A stretch of DNA of 36,652 nucleotides from Methanobrevibacter sp. (lineage in GTDB: Archaea > Methanobacteriota > Methanobacteria > Methanobacteriales > Methanobacteriaceae), in assembly GCF_017468685.1 (NCBI RefSeq), contig NZ_JAFUHT010000072.1:1-36652 (forward strand), in the 5' to 3' direction. The position numbers and the translations under genes are program-made. Below are positions 23,989-32,618 of the stretch, piece by piece. A model generated the notes under the pieces. The model was not told the origin of the DNA, searched no databases, and saw nothing but the letters and a program-made list of their open reading frames with translations. Within the stretch, counting starts at the first letter, position 1; every line of letters starts with the position of its first letter.

Positions 23989-24471
23989 ATGAACTTTAAA
24001 TCTCAATTAAACAATTTTTTAACTGATTGTGAAAAATTAATAATATTAGGTGTAGGTAACGAGCTTAAAAGCGATGATGGTGTAGGACCATACATTATTA
24101 AGAAATTAAAAGAGGAAAATATAGAAAATAAAAATCTATTGTTCATAGATGCACAAACCGTTCCGGAAAACTTTACAGGAAAAATCAGAAAAGAAAATCC
24201 TACTCATTTAATCATTGTTGACGCCTGTTTAATGGACTCACAACCGGGAGATATGCAAATTGTAAATAAATATGAATTTGCAAACATAGGCATTTCAACC
24301 CATTCAATGTCATTGTCATTCTTTGTCAGATATCTGGAAAAAGACACTGATTTTAGAATAATATTTGTTGGTATTGAGCCTGAAACTATGGAAATGGGTG
24401 AAAAACCAACACTTGTGGTTGAAAAATCAGCTAACGAATTTATAGAAATTTTAAAAGAGATCATATTATGA
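23989..24471 (+). CDS. hycI: hydrogenase maturation protease (HycI-like)
   Basis: A 160-aa protease of the HyaD/HycI family that clips the C-terminus of a [NiFe] hydrogenase large subunit after nickel insertion. The signature LGVGNELKSDDGVGPYI covers residues about 20-36; its Glu/Asp and the later DACLMD aspartate are the nickel-sensing residues, and FVGIEPE lies near the C-terminus. Its ATG follows GGTGTTAAA. It overlaps the next gene by 4 nt (ATGA type). The target in a methanogen could be Eha/Ehb- or Frh-type hydrogenase; the sequence does not decide. Confidence 0.88.
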   Translation: MNFKSQLNNFLTDCEKLIILGVGNELKSDDGVGPYIIKKLKEENIENKNLLFIDAQTVPENFTGKIRKENPTHLIIVDACLMDSQPGDMQIVNKYEFANIGISTHSMSLSFFVRYLEKDTDFRIIFVGIEPETMEMGEKPTLVVEKSANEFIEILKEIIL

Positions 24472-25562
24472 AAATTTTATTTATTGGCTCAAGATTATAT
24501 GATGATTTAGATTGGTATGTCAAATCAAAAGGAATAGAAAGTGTTTTAACCGAATCAAATGAGGATGCAATCAATTTGGATTTGCCTGATCAGGTATTTA
24601 TTGTTCCAAGAGGAATGGATGGTCCTAAACAGGTTGCATTAATGCAAAATGTGGATGCAATTGTGCCGCTTATAGGCATAGACCCTCCATTAATCGATGT
24701 GGCTCATATGAAGGAAGAGGTTGAAAAGGATTATGGCATACCTGTGATTGCAGCGGGAGTAAGGGCAGTTGAATTAACTTCAAATAAAATCAAAACTAAA
24801 GGATTTTACACTGAAATTGGGGTTACAACTCCTAAATATCAAATATTAAACAGTCCTGATGAGTTGGATTTGGAGTTGCCGGTTGTCCTAAAACAGGGTG
24901 AAGGACAAGGCGGAAAGGATATCAAGGTTGCAAAAACAATTGAAGATGTTGAGGAATACTTCAAAGAATTTAACCAGGCCCTTTGTGAAGAATTTATTGA
25001 AGGTGCAGAAATATCCATTGAAGTTTTAGGATATGATGGTCAGTATGTTGCTTTGCCTCCAATTTATAAAGGTGAAACAACTTTGGAAGGAACACACCCG
25101 TTAAATAAGACTAAAACAGGTCCTTGTATGGTTGAGGGACTGGATAATAATCTGGTTCAGCACACCGCTTATAAAGTGGCCAAAAATCTGGATTCTGACG
25201 GAATATTTGAAATGGATTTCATGTATTCAAGAAAAAACAATCAGTTATATGCAATAGAAGTGAATACTCGTCCTAATGGTACAAGATATTTAACAACTGC
25301 CACATGTGGGGTTAACTCCTTATGTGAATTAGTTAATATGGCTATTGGGGAGTTTAGCTTAGCAGACATTTCAGATAAACTTCAGTATAATTATTCAACT
25401 GAAATCCCTGTGGGGGACTATAACGGACCTAAAGCAAATGAACCGATTAAATCATTTGAAAATAATGATTTTGTTGTGCATGGTCCTCAAGGATATCAAA
25501 GAGTCACAGCAAAAGCTGATTCCAAAGATGAACTAGAAAAATTAGTTGATAAATTAACTTAA
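24468..25562 (+). CDS. CarB-like ATP-grasp protein of the pseudomurein cluster
   Basis: A 364-aa ATP-grasp enzyme resembling half of carbamoyl-phosphate synthase large subunit. The N-terminal pre-ATP-grasp part is MKILFIGSRLYDDLD; the ATP-binding region has PVVLKQGEGQGGKDIKVA and FIEGAEISIEVLGYDGQYV; metal ligands are in GIFEMDFMYS and AIEVNTRPNGTRYL. ATP-grasp enzymes make acyl-phosphate intermediates and form peptide-like bonds. A stand-alone CarB-like gene next to MraY- and Mur-like genes is a known feature of pseudomurein-making methanogens, so a role in wall-precursor synthesis is likely. It overlaps hycI by 4 nt, so the operon may start further upstream. Confidence 0.85.
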   Translation: MKILFIGSRLYDDLDWYVKSKGIESVLTESNEDAINLDLPDQVFIVPRGMDGPKQVALMQNVDAIVPLIGIDPPLIDVAHMKEEVEKDYGIPVIAAGVRAVELTSNKIKTKGFYTEIGVTTPKYQILNSPDELDLELPVVLKQGEGQGGKDIKVAKTIEDVEEYFKEFNQALCEEFIEGAEISIEVLGYDGQYVALPPIYKGETTLEGTHPLNKTKTGPCMVEGLDNNLVQHTAYKVAKNLDSDGIFEMDFMYSRKNNQLYAIEVNTRPNGTRYLTTATCGVNSLCELVNMAIGEFSLADISDKLQYNYSTEIPVGDYNGPKANEPIKSFENNDFVVHGPQGYQRVTAKADSKDELEKLVDKLT

Positions 25563-25642
25563 AAAACTGTGTTATAAGTTATAATTATATACTATTATCA
25601 ATATATATTTTAATAATCTAAATATTTGATAGTGTGATTATA

Positions 25643-26713
25643 ATGAATAATACAGATATGTTAATTCTTTTTTTAATAACATTGTGCGCTACAATATTCT
25701 TTACATGGTATGTTAAAAGGATATTGTTAAAAGCAAGGATTGCAGATAATCCTATAGTAAGTGAACATAGACATAAAAGCGGTACTCCTACAATGGGAGG
25801 TATAGCATTTTTATTTACAATTTCCCTAATTATTGCACTGTACTATCAAAACACACCAATTTTAATCGTATCATTCATTATGCTTGCAGGAGGAATTGTA
25901 GGTTTAGTAGATGATTTAATTGGACTTAAAGTCAAAGAAGTTCAGAAAATTGTAGTAAACACTTCAAATGAAACCATTGCATTAGGAAGATTGGACGTTG
26001 AACCTAATGAGGAAGTTCGTGTTGCAACTCCTAAAGCAAAAGCAGAAGTAGATGATTTGCTTAAAGCAGGAAAAGTTGAAGTGATTGGTGAAGTTCCAAT
26101 TAAAACAGAACCTGAAGAAACCGAAAAAATCATATGTCAAATTGTATTGGGATTATTTTTAGGATTGACTGGTGTTGTAACCACTTTAGGTGGTTTTGAA
26201 CTAGGAATATTGGCTATTCCGGTTGTTATAATTGCAGTTTTAGGATCAATCAATTCAGTCAACTTGATTGACGGTATGGATGGTCTTGCGGCAGGAATAG
26301 TTGGAATTGCATCAATTGCATGTTGTGTATACGGTTACTTGTTTGGACCTTTAACTGTTATTCCGCCATTTTTAATACTTGCAGGTTTATGTTTAGGATT
26401 TTTAGTGTTTAACAAATATCCTGCAAAAATATTCATGGGAGATACAGGGTCATTTGTACTGGGAACTGGTTATGCAGCAGCTGTTTTAGTATGTGATATT
26501 CCATACTTTGGTGTTCTTGCATTAGGTGTGCCAATAATATCTGTTGTTGTAAGCTTGTTGCATAGGGCACATATTATTAAATTGCCTGTAGAGCCACTAC
26601 ATCATACTTTAAACCATTATGGAATGTCTGAAACAAAAATCGTTTGGACTTATTGGGGATTTACAGCATTATTATGTATCATAGGTATTCTTTTAAAGAT
26701 GTACCTTTTCTAA
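25643..26713 (+). CDS. MraY-like phospho-sugar transferase with inserted domain
   Basis: A 356-aa polyprenyl-phosphate transferase (glycosyltransferase family 4). Motifs: SGTPTMGGIAFLF (about 46-58), LVDDLIGL with the Asp pair at 90-91, NSVNLIDGMDGLAAG (about 205-219), FMGDTGSFVLG, and PLHHTLNHYG in place of the bacterial HHH loop. It is predicted to load the pseudomurein precursor onto undecaprenyl phosphate. Unlike bacterial MraY, about 70 residues (96-165; VEPNEEVRVATPKAKAEV and more) are inserted between the second conserved loop and the next helix. About nine or ten transmembrane helices. ATG 25643 is preferred to GTG 25634. 81 nt separate it from the CarB-like gene. Confidence 0.9.
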   Translation: MNNTDMLILFLITLCATIFFTWYVKRILLKARIADNPIVSEHRHKSGTPTMGGIAFLFTISLIIALYYQNTPILIVSFIMLAGGIVGLVDDLIGLKVKEVQKIVVNTSNETIALGRLDVEPNEEVRVATPKAKAEVDDLLKAGKVEVIGEVPIKTEPEETEKIICQIVLGLFLGLTGVVTTLGGFELGILAIPVVIIAVLGSINSVNLIDGMDGLAAGIVGIASIACCVYGYLFGPLTVIPPFLILAGLCLGFLVFNKYPAKIFMGDTGSFVLGTGYAAAVLVCDIPYFGVLALGVPIISVVVSLLHRAHIIKLPVEPLHHTLNHYGMSETKIVWTYWGFTALLCIIGILLKMYLF

Positions 26714-26732: not shown

Positions 26733-28478
26733 ATGGATATTAAAGATTTGGCTAATTCAATTAATGGAAAACTTGTAGGGAATGATGATTTTTTCTCAAT
26801 TGATGGATTTACTGGAAAGTTCACATATTTGCATGATGCTCATACAGGAGATATTGTAATAAGGGATTGGGTTGATGCAACTGGTGTTCAAATGGCCTTT
26901 AAACAGAATATTGCATGTCTGATAACTCCGCAACCTAAGGATGGAGCTGTTGAAGAGGCCAACAGATTGAATTTTCCATTAATCATTGTAGATGATATTG
27001 AATTGGCTAAAACTTATGTTATAGAAAACACTGAAACTGAAAAATTAGAAGATATTTGCGATTTAGTTAAAGCAGTTGAGGGGAAGATTGTTGGTAACGA
27101 CGAGTTCTTTTCAATTGATGGATTTACCGGAAAGTTCACATTTTTAAATGATGCTCATACTGGAGATATTGTTGTAAGGCACTGGATTAATGGCACTGGC
27201 ATTCAAATGGCATTCAATAAAAATATCGCTTGTCTAATCACACAAACTCCGAAGGACGGAGCTATTGAAACTGCTGAGAGATTGAATTTTCCATTGATTA
27301 TAACAGATAAAATTGAGTTAGCAAATGCATATGCTTTATCACATACCATTGCCAAGTATTCTCCAACTTCAACAAATGTTGTAATCACTGGAACCAATGG
27401 TAAATCAACAACTTCCCATTTAATTTATCATATTTTAAACAATGCAGGTTATCATGTATTGACAAATACTGACAGTGAATCAGAATTCAATACTCTGATT
27501 GATCCGATGGTTTCCAAACTGATTTGTGATGAAGTTCAAAAGAATGGAAAATTGGATTATCTGGTCATTGAAGTGTCTGAAGTTCAAGGTTGGCTTGATA
27601 AACTAATGAAAAATCATGCAGCATTAATGAGTGAAGCAATTAAACCAAAAGTTGGTGTGATAACCAATATTGCAATGGATCATATTGGTCTTGTAAACTC
27701 TATTGATGATGTGTTTGAAGAAATCAGACCCGTTCCTCAGGCCATTGGCAATGGAATCACCATTTTAAATCATGATGATGAACTTGTAATGAAACTGGAA
27801 GCTGAAAACCCATTTTACACTTCAATGTCTGAACTGAAAGAGGACAATTCTGTTTACTTTAATGGGGATGCTATAATATATAAAAATAATCCGATTTTAT
27901 CTGTTGACGAGTTGCCGTTTACAGGTAATCATTTTATTCAAAATATCTTGTCTGCTGTTGGAGCATGTATCTCATTAGGCATTGACATTGCAGAAATTGT
28001 AGATGGTGTGAAAACTTATAAGGCATTAAATAGAAGATTTGCTAAGTTAAATGATGAACCATTAATTTACGATGATTTTGCTCATAATCCTGATGGAATT
28101 AAAGCTACAATATCTGAAACTCTCAAATTGCTTTTGCCAAATCAAAAGCTACATGTTGTATGTGCAATAAGAGGTTCAAGGGGTGTTGAAATAAATCAGC
28201 TTAATGTTGAAGCATTGGTTGAATCAATGAATGAGGACATTGAGTTATACTTGTCTTCAAGTAATGATGTAGTAAATGAATTGAATTTTGTTGAGGATAA
28301 TGAGAGGGAAGTATTTTTCAACACATTGAAAGAAAATAATATTGAATTCACTCATTTTGTAAATTTAAAGGATTGTCTTGAGGAAGTATATCAAAAAGCA
28401 GATAAAAATGATATTATCTTATTGATTGGAGCTCAGGGAATGGATCCTGCTGAATCACTTTTATCAGATATAATATAA
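26733..28478 (+). CDS. Mur ligase family enzyme with duplicated N-terminal domain
   Basis: A 581-aa Mur ligase, ATP-dependent amino-acid ligase for the pseudomurein peptide. The ATP loop is ITGTNGKSTTS (219-229); then GVITNIAMDHIG, the Mur central-domain helix, and a C-terminal domain starting near NRRFAKLNDEPLIYDDFAHN. Residues 6-100 and 111-205 are tandem copies of one domain (about 65 of 95 identical by hand count), each beginning near GKLVGNDDFFSIDGFTGKF. This makes the protein longer than bacterial Mur ligases (about 450-500 aa). GGAGAT precedes the ATG, 19 nt after the MraY-like gene, so the two are co-transcribed. Which residue it adds cannot be read from the sequence. Confidence 0.9.
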   Translation: MDIKDLANSINGKLVGNDDFFSIDGFTGKFTYLHDAHTGDIVIRDWVDATGVQMAFKQNIACLITPQPKDGAVEEANRLNFPLIIVDDIELAKTYVIENTETEKLEDICDLVKAVEGKIVGNDEFFSIDGFTGKFTFLNDAHTGDIVVRHWINGTGIQMAFNKNIACLITQTPKDGAIETAERLNFPLIITDKIELANAYALSHTIAKYSPTSTNVVITGTNGKSTTSHLIYHILNNAGYHVLTNTDSESEFNTLIDPMVSKLICDEVQKNGKLDYLVIEVSEVQGWLDKLMKNHAALMSEAIKPKVGVITNIAMDHIGLVNSIDDVFEEIRPVPQAIGNGITILNHDDELVMKLEAENPFYTSMSELKEDNSVYFNGDAIIYKNNPILSVDELPFTGNHFIQNILSAVGACISLGIDIAEIVDGVKTYKALNRRFAKLNDEPLIYDDFAHNPDGIKATISETLKLLLPNQKLHVVCAIRGSRGVEINQLNVEALVESMNEDIELYLSSSNDVVNELNFVEDNEREVFFNTLKENNIEFTHFVNLKDCLEEVYQKADKNDIILLIGAQGMDPAESLLSDII

Positions 28479-28561: not shown

Positions 28562-29008
28562 ATGTTTATAAAGATTAGGAGAGACACATTAATAATTTTA
28601 TTATTGGCGTTTATTTTAATTCTTTGTGGTCGTTTAATTACATATGTTGCATTTGCCTCCTCTGATGATATTAATGATGGTATTCCTATTTCTGGGGTAA
28701 TCATAAAAGGAAATGATATTGTTCCGGTGGATACCATTAGATATAATGTAATGCAAGCAGGTTTCAGGGACGGTAGTGTAATATATGGAGATATTTTAAA
28801 AACTTCTAAAAGAGAGGTTTCGCTGCAGGATGCGATACAAACGGCGCAGGAATTTGCAACACGGTCAACAGTGCCAGGTACATCTGTTCAGCCAATAACA
28901 GCTGCAGATGTTCAGGTTGATAAAAACACTGGTGTTGTTACAGTAACTGTTATAGAAGACTTTTCTTCTGTTGAATTGGAGAATAAAACAACAGGGGCGA
29001 GTGGATGA
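28562..29008 (+). CDS. bitopic membrane protein with POTRA-like extracytoplasmic domain
   Basis: A 148-aa protein with a short basic N-terminus (MFIKIRR), one transmembrane segment (about 9-31), and an extracytoplasmic domain of about 100 residues. The domain starts ISGVIIKGNDIVPVDTIRYN (43-62), then a G-rich turn and helix (VSLQDAIQTAQEFA), and ends ADVQVDKNTGVVTVTVIED (115-133). The order strand-GN-helix-helix-strand-TG-strand is that of POTRA domains as in BamA or FtsQ. The topology and a position right after mraY/mur-type genes recall bacterial FtsQ/DivIB. POTRA homology is my inference from pattern. It overlaps the next gene by 4 nt. Function unknown. Confidence 0.72.
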   Translation: MFIKIRRDTLIILLLAFILILCGRLITYVAFASSDDINDGIPISGVIIKGNDIVPVDTIRYNVMQAGFRDGSVIYGDILKTSKREVSLQDAIQTAQEFATRSTVPGTSVQPITAADVQVDKNTGVVTVTVIEDFSSVELENKTTGASG

Positions 29009-30270
29009 AGTTGAAAAAGTTTCATGTATCAATAGTTTTTCTGATTATTTTTTTAATGACTATGAGTAGCGTTGCGGCTACTTGTAACATTATTGTTATT
29101 ACAGACCCTTCAGGTGATGACCCTAATGGGGCTGCTGCAGGAAGTATGTCCTTTGCAGATAACATGTTCCAGTCAACATTTTTAATGTCTAAAAATAATC
29201 ACTTTGCAGTACTATCCGGGGGTACTGGTAGTTCTGACACTAGGCTGGAATCAATTATTGATGCTGTAGCTAATCTTGAAAATAATGCATCTGCAGCTTC
29301 TGCTGCGGCACTTGCTTCTCAGTTTAAGGGGGCTCGTCTGTTAGTTGGCGGTCCAAATATTGGTGCAGCTATTGGTGGGTCTTTCAATGCTTATGTAATT
29401 ACTGTTGATGATTCAAGCAATGATATTAAAGTAACTCCTTATACCAGTGGTGTTGCTACTTTACAGCCTGGTCAGAAAGGAGCAATTATTCACTTGAGAA
29501 ACACTGCAGGAAACCCATTATATGGTACTGCGGATTCTGTGAGAAAAGAAACTGCAATGAATATTGGAAAAATGATCAGGGATGGTTATCCAGCTACTAC
29601 TATTTTGTCTGAAGCTATGGGTGAAGTGGCTCATGATTCCGGTGAAAAATATGGTGGTGGTGGAGTAAATTTAATATCAGGTATTTCGACTGATGACATG
29701 TTTACTCCTCAGGAAATGAACCAGACCGGTTATCCTATGGATGAAGAATACTCCAAGGTATGTGATGACTGCGGATGGGCTATGGGTTATCCTGCGGCTG
29801 AAAGCTATGACAGATGTCCAGTTTGTGGTTCAGAATTAAGAATTGTGCATGCATACGAGGCATTGGGTTCTGCATTGACCGTTAGTCAGAATGCGGTTAG
29901 TGTTTCAGTTTATGGAAGTGACAAACCTGGTTTAGCATCTACTACAGCAGAAATTGTGGAAGCATCTGTTGCTAAATATGGATATGATGCATCTGCTATC
30001 GCTGGTTCTATTAATAGAGGTATTAATAATGGTCTATTGATGGGTGTGGATCATGTGGAACCTAAAGACATTAATGTTAAACAGGGTTCTAAGGCTGTTG
30101 GTGTTTATTATAATGCTCTTCCAGGAGACAGGTCTTCTCCAGCATGGGACTTGCCAATTGATGGAAATGTCTTAAATATATTAGGAAGTATTCAGACTGC
30201 AGTAGGTATTATTCTAATACTTTTAGTTGTGTTCAGGTCAAGATTATTAAAATCTTTCCAAAATAGGTGA
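29005..30270 (+). CDS. secreted/membrane-anchored zinc-ribbon protein
   Basis: A 421-aa envelope protein. A signal peptide or anchor covers residues 1-26 (ends SSVAAT). A large outer domain follows, rich in small residues (DPSGDDPNGAAAGSMSFADN, GGPNIGAAIGGSFNAYV, MNIGKMIRDGYPATTILSEA). A zinc-ribbon motif lies at Cys253-x-x-Cys256 and Cys271-x-x-Cys274 (KVCDDCGW, DRCPVCGS). A C-terminal transmembrane segment near 392-410 is followed by a basic RSRLLKSFQNR tail facing the cytoplasm. It overlaps the POTRA-like gene by 4 nt. A zinc ribbon outside the membrane is uncommon. No family was recognised; the operon suggests cell-wall work. Confidence 0.75.
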   Translation: MKLKKFHVSIVFLIIFLMTMSSVAATCNIIVITDPSGDDPNGAAAGSMSFADNMFQSTFLMSKNNHFAVLSGGTGSSDTRLESIIDAVANLENNASAASAAALASQFKGARLLVGGPNIGAAIGGSFNAYVITVDDSSNDIKVTPYTSGVATLQPGQKGAIIHLRNTAGNPLYGTADSVRKETAMNIGKMIRDGYPATTILSEAMGEVAHDSGEKYGGGGVNLISGISTDDMFTPQEMNQTGYPMDEEYSKVCDDCGWAMGYPAAESYDRCPVCGSELRIVHAYEALGSALTVSQNAVSVSVYGSDKPGLASTTAEIVEASVAKYGYDASAIAGSINRGINNGLLMGVDHVEPKDINVKQGSKAVGVYYNALPGDRSSPAWDLPIDGNVLNILGSIQTAVGIILILLVVFRSRLLKSFQNR

Positions 30271-30275
30271 TTATT

Positions 30276-30707
30276 ATGGCTTTAATATTAGTTAGAGGTG
30301 AAAACAATTCCAAATTACTTAATGCAATTGCTGATATGGAACGTCATGGTAATCTAAATTTAACAACTAAACCTAAAGTTGTTGATGCCGGTTTTGCCGA
30401 TTCTTTAGTTGAGGGAATTTTAAATTCTAAACTCAAAACCAAATCTAATGTGGCTACTGCATTTTTTGTAAAAGAAGATACTACATTAAGCATTATGCAA
30501 GTTAAAAAGATTCATCCTCCGGCTCATGTGGTAGTTGTTAGTGATGAATATGGCGCTTACTCTAAATTGGAGTATGTTTTAAATAATGCTGAAGAATTTA
30601 AGCAATATCATTCCAATAAGGCTGTTAATGATGGGATGATTGATTATAAAATTAATAAAAAAGAAAGGCATATTAAAAATGATAAGTTAAATAGCTATAC
30701 AAAATAG
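30276..30707 (+). CDS. unknown 143-aa cytosolic protein of the wall operon
   Basis: An alpha/beta soluble protein beginning MALILVRGENNSKLLNAIAD and with a strand AHVVVVSDEYGAY near the middle. The C-terminal third is basic (KINKKERHIKNDKL). AGGTGA (30265-30270), which contains the stop of the upstream gene, is spaced 5 nt from ATG 30276. Third gene of the unit after the POTRA-like and zinc-ribbon genes. No family recognised; possibly a Methanobacteriales-specific partner. Confidence 0.7.
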   Translation: MALILVRGENNSKLLNAIADMERHGNLNLTTKPKVVDAGFADSLVEGILNSKLKTKSNVATAFFVKEDTTLSIMQVKKIHPPAHVVVVSDEYGAYSKLEYVLNNAEEFKQYHSNKAVNDGMIDYKINKKERHIKNDKLNSYTK

Positions 30708-31295: not shown

Positions 31296-31361
31296 AAAGT
31301 TACTAATTGTTATTAAAGTAACATGTTGTTAAAAATTTTAAACTAACTGGAGATGATTCAC

Positions 31362-32618
31362 ATGGATGATTTTAATGATTTGGAAAATTCTTCAAAAGAA
31401 CAGTTAATCGAAAAAGTCGATGATTTACAGGAAGAAATTCTTTCTTTAAGAGAAGAAAAATCCAAAGCTAAAAGTAACTTAATGTGGAAAGTTAGGAAAT
31501 TAGAAAAGGATAAAGTCCTAATAGAAAATGAAAAAATCAGATTGGAAAGAGAAGTAAAATCTCTCAGATCAGAAGTAGATAGATTTAGGTCCCCTCCTTT
31601 AGTACTTGCTACAATTACAGAGGTATTGGATGATCATAGAATGACCGTTAAAAGCAGTACAGGGCCTAGTTTTTTAGTTAATTATTCAAAATTCTTAGAT
31701 GAAAAATTATTAGTTCCAGGTTCAAGAGTCGCTTTAAACCAACAGACATTCGGTATAGTTGAAGTATTGCCATCTGAAAAAGATGCAAATGTTTCAGGAA
31801 TGGAAATTGAAACCAAACCGGATATTACTTATGATAAGATTGGTGGATTGGAAGAACAAATTAGAGAAGTTAAGGAAACCGTTGAACTTCCTTTAACCGA
31901 ACCTGAATTATTTGAAAGAGTAGGTATTGAACCACCTAAAGGAATTTTATTATACGGTCCTCCTGGAACCGGTAAGACTTTGCTTGCAAAAGCTGTAGCA
32001 AATGAAACCAATGCTACTTTCATAAAAATTGTAGCTTCAGAATTCGTTAAAAAGTATATAGGTGAAGGGGCAAGACTTGTTCGTGAAGTATTTGAACTTG
32101 CTAAAGAAAAAGCACCGGCAATTATTTTCATTGATGAATTGGATGCAGTAGCAGCAAAAAGACTTAAAAGTTCCACTAGTGGGGACAGGGAAGTTCAAAG
32201 AACTTTAATGCAATTGCTTGCAGAACTTGACGGATTCGAATCAAGAGGAGATATCGGTATTATTGGCGCTACTAATAGGCCGGATATTTTAGACCCTGCA
32301 CTATTGCGTCCGGGTCGTTTTGACAGATTTATTGAAGTTCCTCTTCCAAATGAAGATGGAAGACGTGAAATCCTTAAAATTCATACCAGAAACATGTCCT
32401 TTGATGAAGAGGCAGATGTTGATTTATTAGCAGATTTAACTGACGGTTTGTCTGGTGCGGACTTAAAGGCGGTATGTACCGAAGCAGGTATGTTTGCAAT
32501 TCGTTCAAAACGTGATAAAATCACTGTTGACGACTTTATGAAAGCAGTTGATAAAGTCATGGAGAAAAATAAAGAAGATGAAATCTTCAAATCCGAAGCA
32601 GGCATGATGTTTGGATAA
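31362..32618 (+). CDS. pan: proteasome-activating nucleotidase PAN
   Basis: A 418-aa AAA+ ATPase that unfolds substrates and feeds the 20S proteasome. Residues about 12-76 form a coiled coil ending at Pro78-Pro79. An OB domain follows (about 80-135). The AAA part has Walker A GPPGTGKT (199-206), Walker [10 protein letters not shown] (254-262), an Arg-finger region [10 protein letters not shown], and sensor [10 protein letters not shown]. The C-terminus is MMFG, where the last three residues fit the HbYX-like (hydrophobic-aromatic-X) proteasome-docking motif. I prefer ATG 31362 over 31353 because GGAGATGA sits at the right distance. It is divergent from MBF1 and followed 13 nt after its stop by a C/D box sRNA. 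Confidence 0.96.

Follow-up and report, generated by a model that had tools for sequence, protein, structure and literature searches.

A single-span archaeal membrane protein with a predicted POTRA fold is paired with a putative Ntn-hydrolase in the pseudomurein gene cluster of Methanobrevibacter

Background

POTRA is a protein-docking domain that has been described from the bacterial division and outer-membrane machinery. Archaea yielded no Omp85/TpsB protein in a survey published in 2014, in which FtsQ was given as the sole further protein with a POTRA (PMC4104836). An initial annotation of a contig of Methanobrevibacter sp., made from the letters alone, proposed that an open reading frame next to pseudomurein genes encodes a POTRA-like domain on a single-span membrane protein, which raises the question of whether this domain is present in an archaeal wall gene cluster, how far the protein resembles FtsQ/DivIB or BamA, and what it may do there. 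In the following, the window means the whole stretch of 36,652 nucleotides that was analysed.

Results

The Mfer763 gene and its distribution

The open reading frame is a real gene. It was matched over its full length by the NCBIfam model NF053641 'Mfer763 family' with 231.7 bits against a curated cut-off of 170, it contains both motifs quoted in the initial annotation, and the mean column identity of the family is 63% (28 diverse members). The topology that had been claimed for its product, a basic N-terminus, one helix (residues 7-33) and approximately 100 outer residues, was borne out by the sequence and by the predicted model, in which the outer part is ordered at about residues 40-137. 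A scan for promoters and terminators gave results at chance level only, the scan models being bacterial, and weak Pfam matches to RibLong, LolA and zinc ribbons were sub-threshold and were set aside. The features of the locus are given in Table 1.

Table 1. Coordinates of the Mfer763 locus in the window
Feature	Position	Strand	Remarks
Pseudomurein ATP-grasp protein (Ddl_archaea, Ddl-like)	24468..25562	+	NF053643; CarB-type gene of the initial annotation
Pseudomurein MraY	25634..26713	+	NF053644
Pseudomurein ligase pMurE	26733..28478	+	NF053648
Mfer763-family gene	28562..29008	+	ATG start; single-span POTRA protein (predicted fold), 148 aa
Mfer763 basic cytoplasmic N-terminus	28562..28582	+	residues 1-7 (MFIKIRR)
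Mfer763 membrane helix	28580..28660	+	residues 7-33; conserved face D8 T9 I12 A16 L19 I20 G23 R24 Y28
Mfer763 predicted POTRA domain	28679..28972	+	residues about 40-137; strand 45-49, helix 56-64, hairpin 73-80, helix 88-100, strands 112-119 and 125-132
Mfer763 S/T/N-rich tail	28973..29005	+	short, disordered; occupies the place of the FtsQ beta domain
Mfer764-family gene	29005..30270	+	NF053642; signal peptide, predicted Ntn-hydrolase-like domain, C-terminal region, membrane helix
Mfer764 signal peptide	29005..29079	+	residues 1-25, ends V-A-A
Mfer764 Thr26 codon	29080..29082	+	invariant; predicted N-terminal nucleophile once the signal peptide is removed
Mfer764 Ntn-hydrolase-like region (predicted)	29080..29874	+	about residues 26-290, end approximate
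Mfer764 CxxC...CxxC knuckle	29761..29826	+	C253 C256 C271 C274
Mfer764 C-terminal membrane helix	30166..30237	+	residues 388-411 (387-420 in model), then basic tail
DUF356 gene	30267..30707	+	start overlaps Mfer764 stop

The expectation that the family would be limited to pseudomurein makers held within Methanobacteriota, where the family model was matched in 139 of 152 genomes, against none of 14 control genomes, which included three other archaea (Methanocaldococcus, Methanosarcina and Sulfolobus); viral contigs and phage and plasmid collections gave no match. When 84,980 species genomes were scanned, 80 relatives were kept, and those with a genus name come from Methanobacteriales methanogens, mostly Methanobrevibacter and Methanosphaera, while the presence of Mfer763 in Methanopyrus is taken from PMC11915815. 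Among the 13 genomes in which Mfer763 was not found, 12 also had no Mfer764, the product of the gene that follows, and one had Mfer764 cut at a contig end; six still carried the cluster MraY above cut-off, and most were fragmented or incomplete. Since the missing Mfer763 goes together with a missing or cut Mfer764 in mostly fragmented or incomplete genomes, assembly gaps are the simplest reading of its absence. Apart from these genomes, a weak match to the family (E 4.5e-4) lies within an open frame of 1818 residues, possibly an adhesin-like protein (G049:C2:21963-22124), and one MAG holds two copies on two contigs, one full length and one partial, by duplication or contamination (G061 C63:70-480 and C7:6905-7234).

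The gene itself is not new, since it appears to be OG0001472 of pseudomurein cluster A, for which Lupo et al. (2025) recorded one TM segment, no signal peptide (SignalP/TMHMM) and no InterPro domain (PMC11915815), its nature being unrecorded in their main text. By position and topology Mfer763 is apparently OG0001472, and Mfer764 corresponds to OG0001162, which has a Sec signal peptide (PMC11915815) and for which the literature lists no domain. What is new here is the predicted POTRA fold of Mfer763 and its predicted Ntn-type partner.

The outer domain of Mfer763

The outer domain of Mfer763 very probably adopts a POTRA fold, because the evidence from sequence and from structure prediction agrees, despite a structural Z score that is middling. 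When a profile built on the 28 diverse members was run against all PDB chain sequences, all four matches (E up to 10) were POTRA domains of BamA/YaeT, the top one being residues 76-115 of Haemophilus influenzae BamA (E 1.8e-5 over the whole sequence; the best stretch had E 0.0016). In addition, hhalign with single sequences gave E 0.0023 for E. coli BamA, in register with POTRA2, and E 0.15 for E. coli FtsQ, roughly in register, each of which is weak alone. PF07244 (POTRA) was weakly matched in 4 of the 28 members (best E 0.029, below the curated cut-off) and PF08478 in none of them; by score, Mfer763 is thus outside both curated Pfam families. A second POTRA protein was not found in the same genome with PF08478 or PF07244.

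The structural side comes from an AlphaFold2 model based on 42 sequences, which has a pLDDT of about 90 over residues 41-130 and, after the helix of residues 7-33, the order beta-alpha-(extra hairpin 73-80)-alpha-beta-beta. With this model, Foldseek placed FtsQ of the FtsBLQ complex first (8hhf_Q, E 3.9e-3, probability 0.99) and BamA POTRAs next, and the best VIA alignment had a Z of 8.7 over 80 residues at 2.4 A, a Z near 8 being middling by itself, as it could reflect a common arrangement. The structural matches were FtsQ, BamA, TamA and Omp85, and nearly all of the top rows were POTRA proteins. The comparison of a structure prediction with POTRA and FtsQ, which the initial annotation had proposed as a check of its POTRA-like domain, was carried out, and the PDB profile search, the model, Foldseek and VIA all supported that claim.

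Gene neighbourhood and the partner gene

The link to pseudomurein genes that had been noticed at first was confirmed, in that NF053643, NF053644 and NF053648 adjoin Mfer763; these neighbours, the Ddl-like ATP-grasp protein, MraY and pMurE, carry family names of pseudomurein enzymes, and Mfer764 does not. The position, which had been likened to that of ftsQ in bacterial dcw clusters, is also real, because pMurD1 and pMurC lie directly upstream of Mfer763 in three other genera inspected; Mfer763 comes after pseudomurein ligase genes in the arrangements inspected. The closest tie of Mfer763 is to the predicted Ntn-hydrolase Mfer764, which the initial annotation left unmentioned. As side observations, the DUF356 gene was seen at the same place in almost all of the genera examined, and positions 964-2683 of the window hold a D-ribitol-5-phosphate cytidylyltransferase-type gene and, after it, a Zn-dependent dehydrogenase, resembling the teichoic-acid TarI/TarJ pair.

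The genetic pairing of Mfer763 and Mfer764 is near-invariable. In the window the start of Mfer764 overlaps the stop codon of Mfer763 (ATGA), and each of the 127 loci with both genes has them on the same strand, although these loci are partly redundant and thus are not 127 independent events; the Thr26 codon mostly lies 50-100 bp downstream of the Mfer763 stop. The two genes stay paired where pMurE or MraY fall outside the fetched stretch. The exception is L128:706-1149 (G136), the only locus with enough downstream sequence in which no Mfer764 follows Mfer763; Mfer764 was not found in the MAG of this locus, which is 63% complete.

Mfer764 is predicted to be an Ntn-hydrolase-like protein. Its model (mean pLDDT 82) has the alpha-beta-beta-alpha arrangement of the Ntn fold, and it was matched to circularly permuted taspase-1 (Foldseek E 9e-5, VIA Z 15.1), to DUF1028 (Z 15.0) and to HslV/proteasome subunits (Z about 12). 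Residue 26 of the model aligns with residue 1 of HslV, proteasome subunits and many of the matched chains, and residue 1 of those chains is the catalytic N-terminal residue of Ntn enzymes. The sequence x-x-Ala-Thr ends at Thr26 in the 99 distinct Mfer764 sequences, the third residue upstream of the Thr being V, A, S or I, and two outliers to the regular expression were found by eye to be matches further upstream. As Thr26 directly follows a signal-peptidase-type site, the predicted nucleophile would be exposed once the signal peptide is cut off. The C-terminal helix would anchor the protein in the membrane, and the four-Cys form of the knuckle is present in 62 of the 99 distinct sequences. Mfer764 resembles taspase-1, DUF1028 and HslV/proteasome beta in its predicted fold and has a Thr in line with the position of their N-terminal nucleophile, but differs from them in its secretion by a signal peptide, its predicted C-terminal membrane anchor and the placement of the Thr directly after a signal-peptidase-type site. 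No sequence relationship to known Ntn enzymes, isoaspartyl peptidase IaaA included, was detected, and the Ntn reading of Mfer764 with Thr26 as its catalytic residue therefore stays a prediction. The gene for PAN (proteasome-activating nucleotidase) lies at 31353-32618 of the window and 3' of the pseudomurein operon in many genera; its closeness to the proteasome-beta-like Mfer764 is probably a coincidence.

Discussion

Mfer763 resembles FtsQ/DivIB in outline, with a short basic N-terminus, one membrane helix and the predicted POTRA directly after it, with the top Foldseek match being FtsQ in its complex, and with ddl/mur-type genes ahead of its gene, like those ahead of ftsQ in E. coli. On these grounds Mfer763 might be the functional equivalent of FtsQ/DivIB, a septal hub coupling FtsZ/SepF division to pseudomurein synthesis, but we consider this unlikely for several reasons. 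Archaea that lack pseudomurein also have FtsZ and SepF, but the Mfer763 family was not found in them, the nearest sequence matches are BamA POTRAs, with POTRA2 closest, and none of the window genes scanned is a division gene, nor is ftsZ found in the pseudomurein cluster (PMC9871819). Furthermore, the C-terminal beta domain with which FtsQ binds FtsB (PMC6134095) is absent: past its last POTRA motif (EDF), Mfer763 has 6-37 further residues, which form a disordered tail, and it is paired with a predicted Ntn-hydrolase. By membership, Mfer763 is not an FtsQ, because this beta domain is missing. BamA/YaeT (Omp85) is closest to Mfer763 in sequence and similar in fold, yet Mfer763, with its 148 aa, has one POTRA and an N-terminal helix anchor and is without the 16-stranded beta-barrel. 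Therefore, of the FtsQ/DivIB or BamA-type pattern seen by the initial annotation, the proximity to BamA POTRA2 and the FtsQ-like topology stood and the beta domain did not, and the equivalence to FtsQ was not upheld.

Two other explanations concern the way in which the domain is held and what it binds. The helix might be a cleaved signal peptide, leaving a soluble POTRA that is extracellular or wall-bound, as 103 of 104 distinct sequences have a signal-peptidase-like [A/S/G]-[F/Y]-[A/S] at residues 30-32, followed by Ser/Ala; this is improbable, since the helix, with a conservation of 0.89, is the most conserved segment of Mfer763 (the POTRA has 0.78), unlike the signal peptide of Mfer764, which is variable (0.57), G23-R24 and Y28 are invariant, and OG0001472 was classed by SignalP/TMHMM as having one TM and no signal peptide (PMC11915815). 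The conserved residues lie on one face of the helix (helical moment, permutation P 0.0097), and this, together with the high conservation, speaks for packing against a partner, though the A-[FY]-A motif comes after the helix. In the other explanation, Mfer763 would serve as an adaptor for the export or flipping of a lipid-linked precursor or for protein secretion through the wall, with the POTRA handling the substrate and with MraY, a neighbour of Mfer763, or a flippase as partner, given that the POTRA domains of Omp85 proteins bind substrates and partners. However, it is Mfer764 that constantly lies beside Mfer763, the pair stays intact where MraY and pMurE are located elsewhere, and the cluster showed no flippase gene, all of which makes this role hardly probable.

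The reading that we prefer, with a probability of about one half, is that Mfer763 is anchored in the membrane and serves Mfer764 as an outward-facing POTRA adaptor during the final stages of pseudomurein assembly, outside the cell. From the computed fold, topology and helix, and gene pairing we infer complex formation, catalysis and a substrate as follows. Signal peptidase would expose Thr26 of Mfer764, and this residue would attack one of the amide bonds of the pseudomurein stem peptide, plausibly the one that holds the terminal residue. The acyl group would then pass either to a Lys of a neighbouring strand, giving a cross-link, or to water, giving trimming. Mfer763 may hold Mfer764 beside the precursor machinery via helix-helix and POTRA contacts, a role proposed because POTRA domains dock partners elsewhere. 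It counts against the adaptor reading that the Ntn assignment comes from a predicted model and that Mfer763 occurs without Mfer764 in the one incomplete MAG of L128.

A narrower and doubtful guess is that the reaction of Mfer764 is cross-linking. In pseudomurein, a terminal residue is removed from one peptide and a Glu-Lys link is made to the next (PMC2812497); no homologue of penicillin-binding proteins was found (PMC2812497). Mfer764 could tentatively be a membrane-anchored Ntn-type threonine transpeptidase that performs this step, with its nucleophile uncovered by signal peptidase and the enzyme held by Mfer763, instead of a PBP-like enzyme or a transglutaminase. The earlier suggestion that transglutaminases make the cross-link (PMC2812497, PMC11915815) counts against this possibility. 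If true, such a machine would carry out wall synthesis unlike the bacterial ones.

In the open-access literature, no paper was found that joins POTRA or Ntn-hydrolases with pseudomurein biosynthesis. A POTRA domain on a single-span archaeal wall protein would extend to archaea a domain described from bacteria and organelles, and the predicted fold gives Mfer763, previously an unannotated member of the cluster, a testable role as a docking module. In addition, Mfer764 becomes a specific candidate for the enzyme that is missing from the outer part of pseudomurein synthesis, a question that dates back to the proposal of the pathway and that may be of relevance for the selective inhibition of gut and rumen methanogens.
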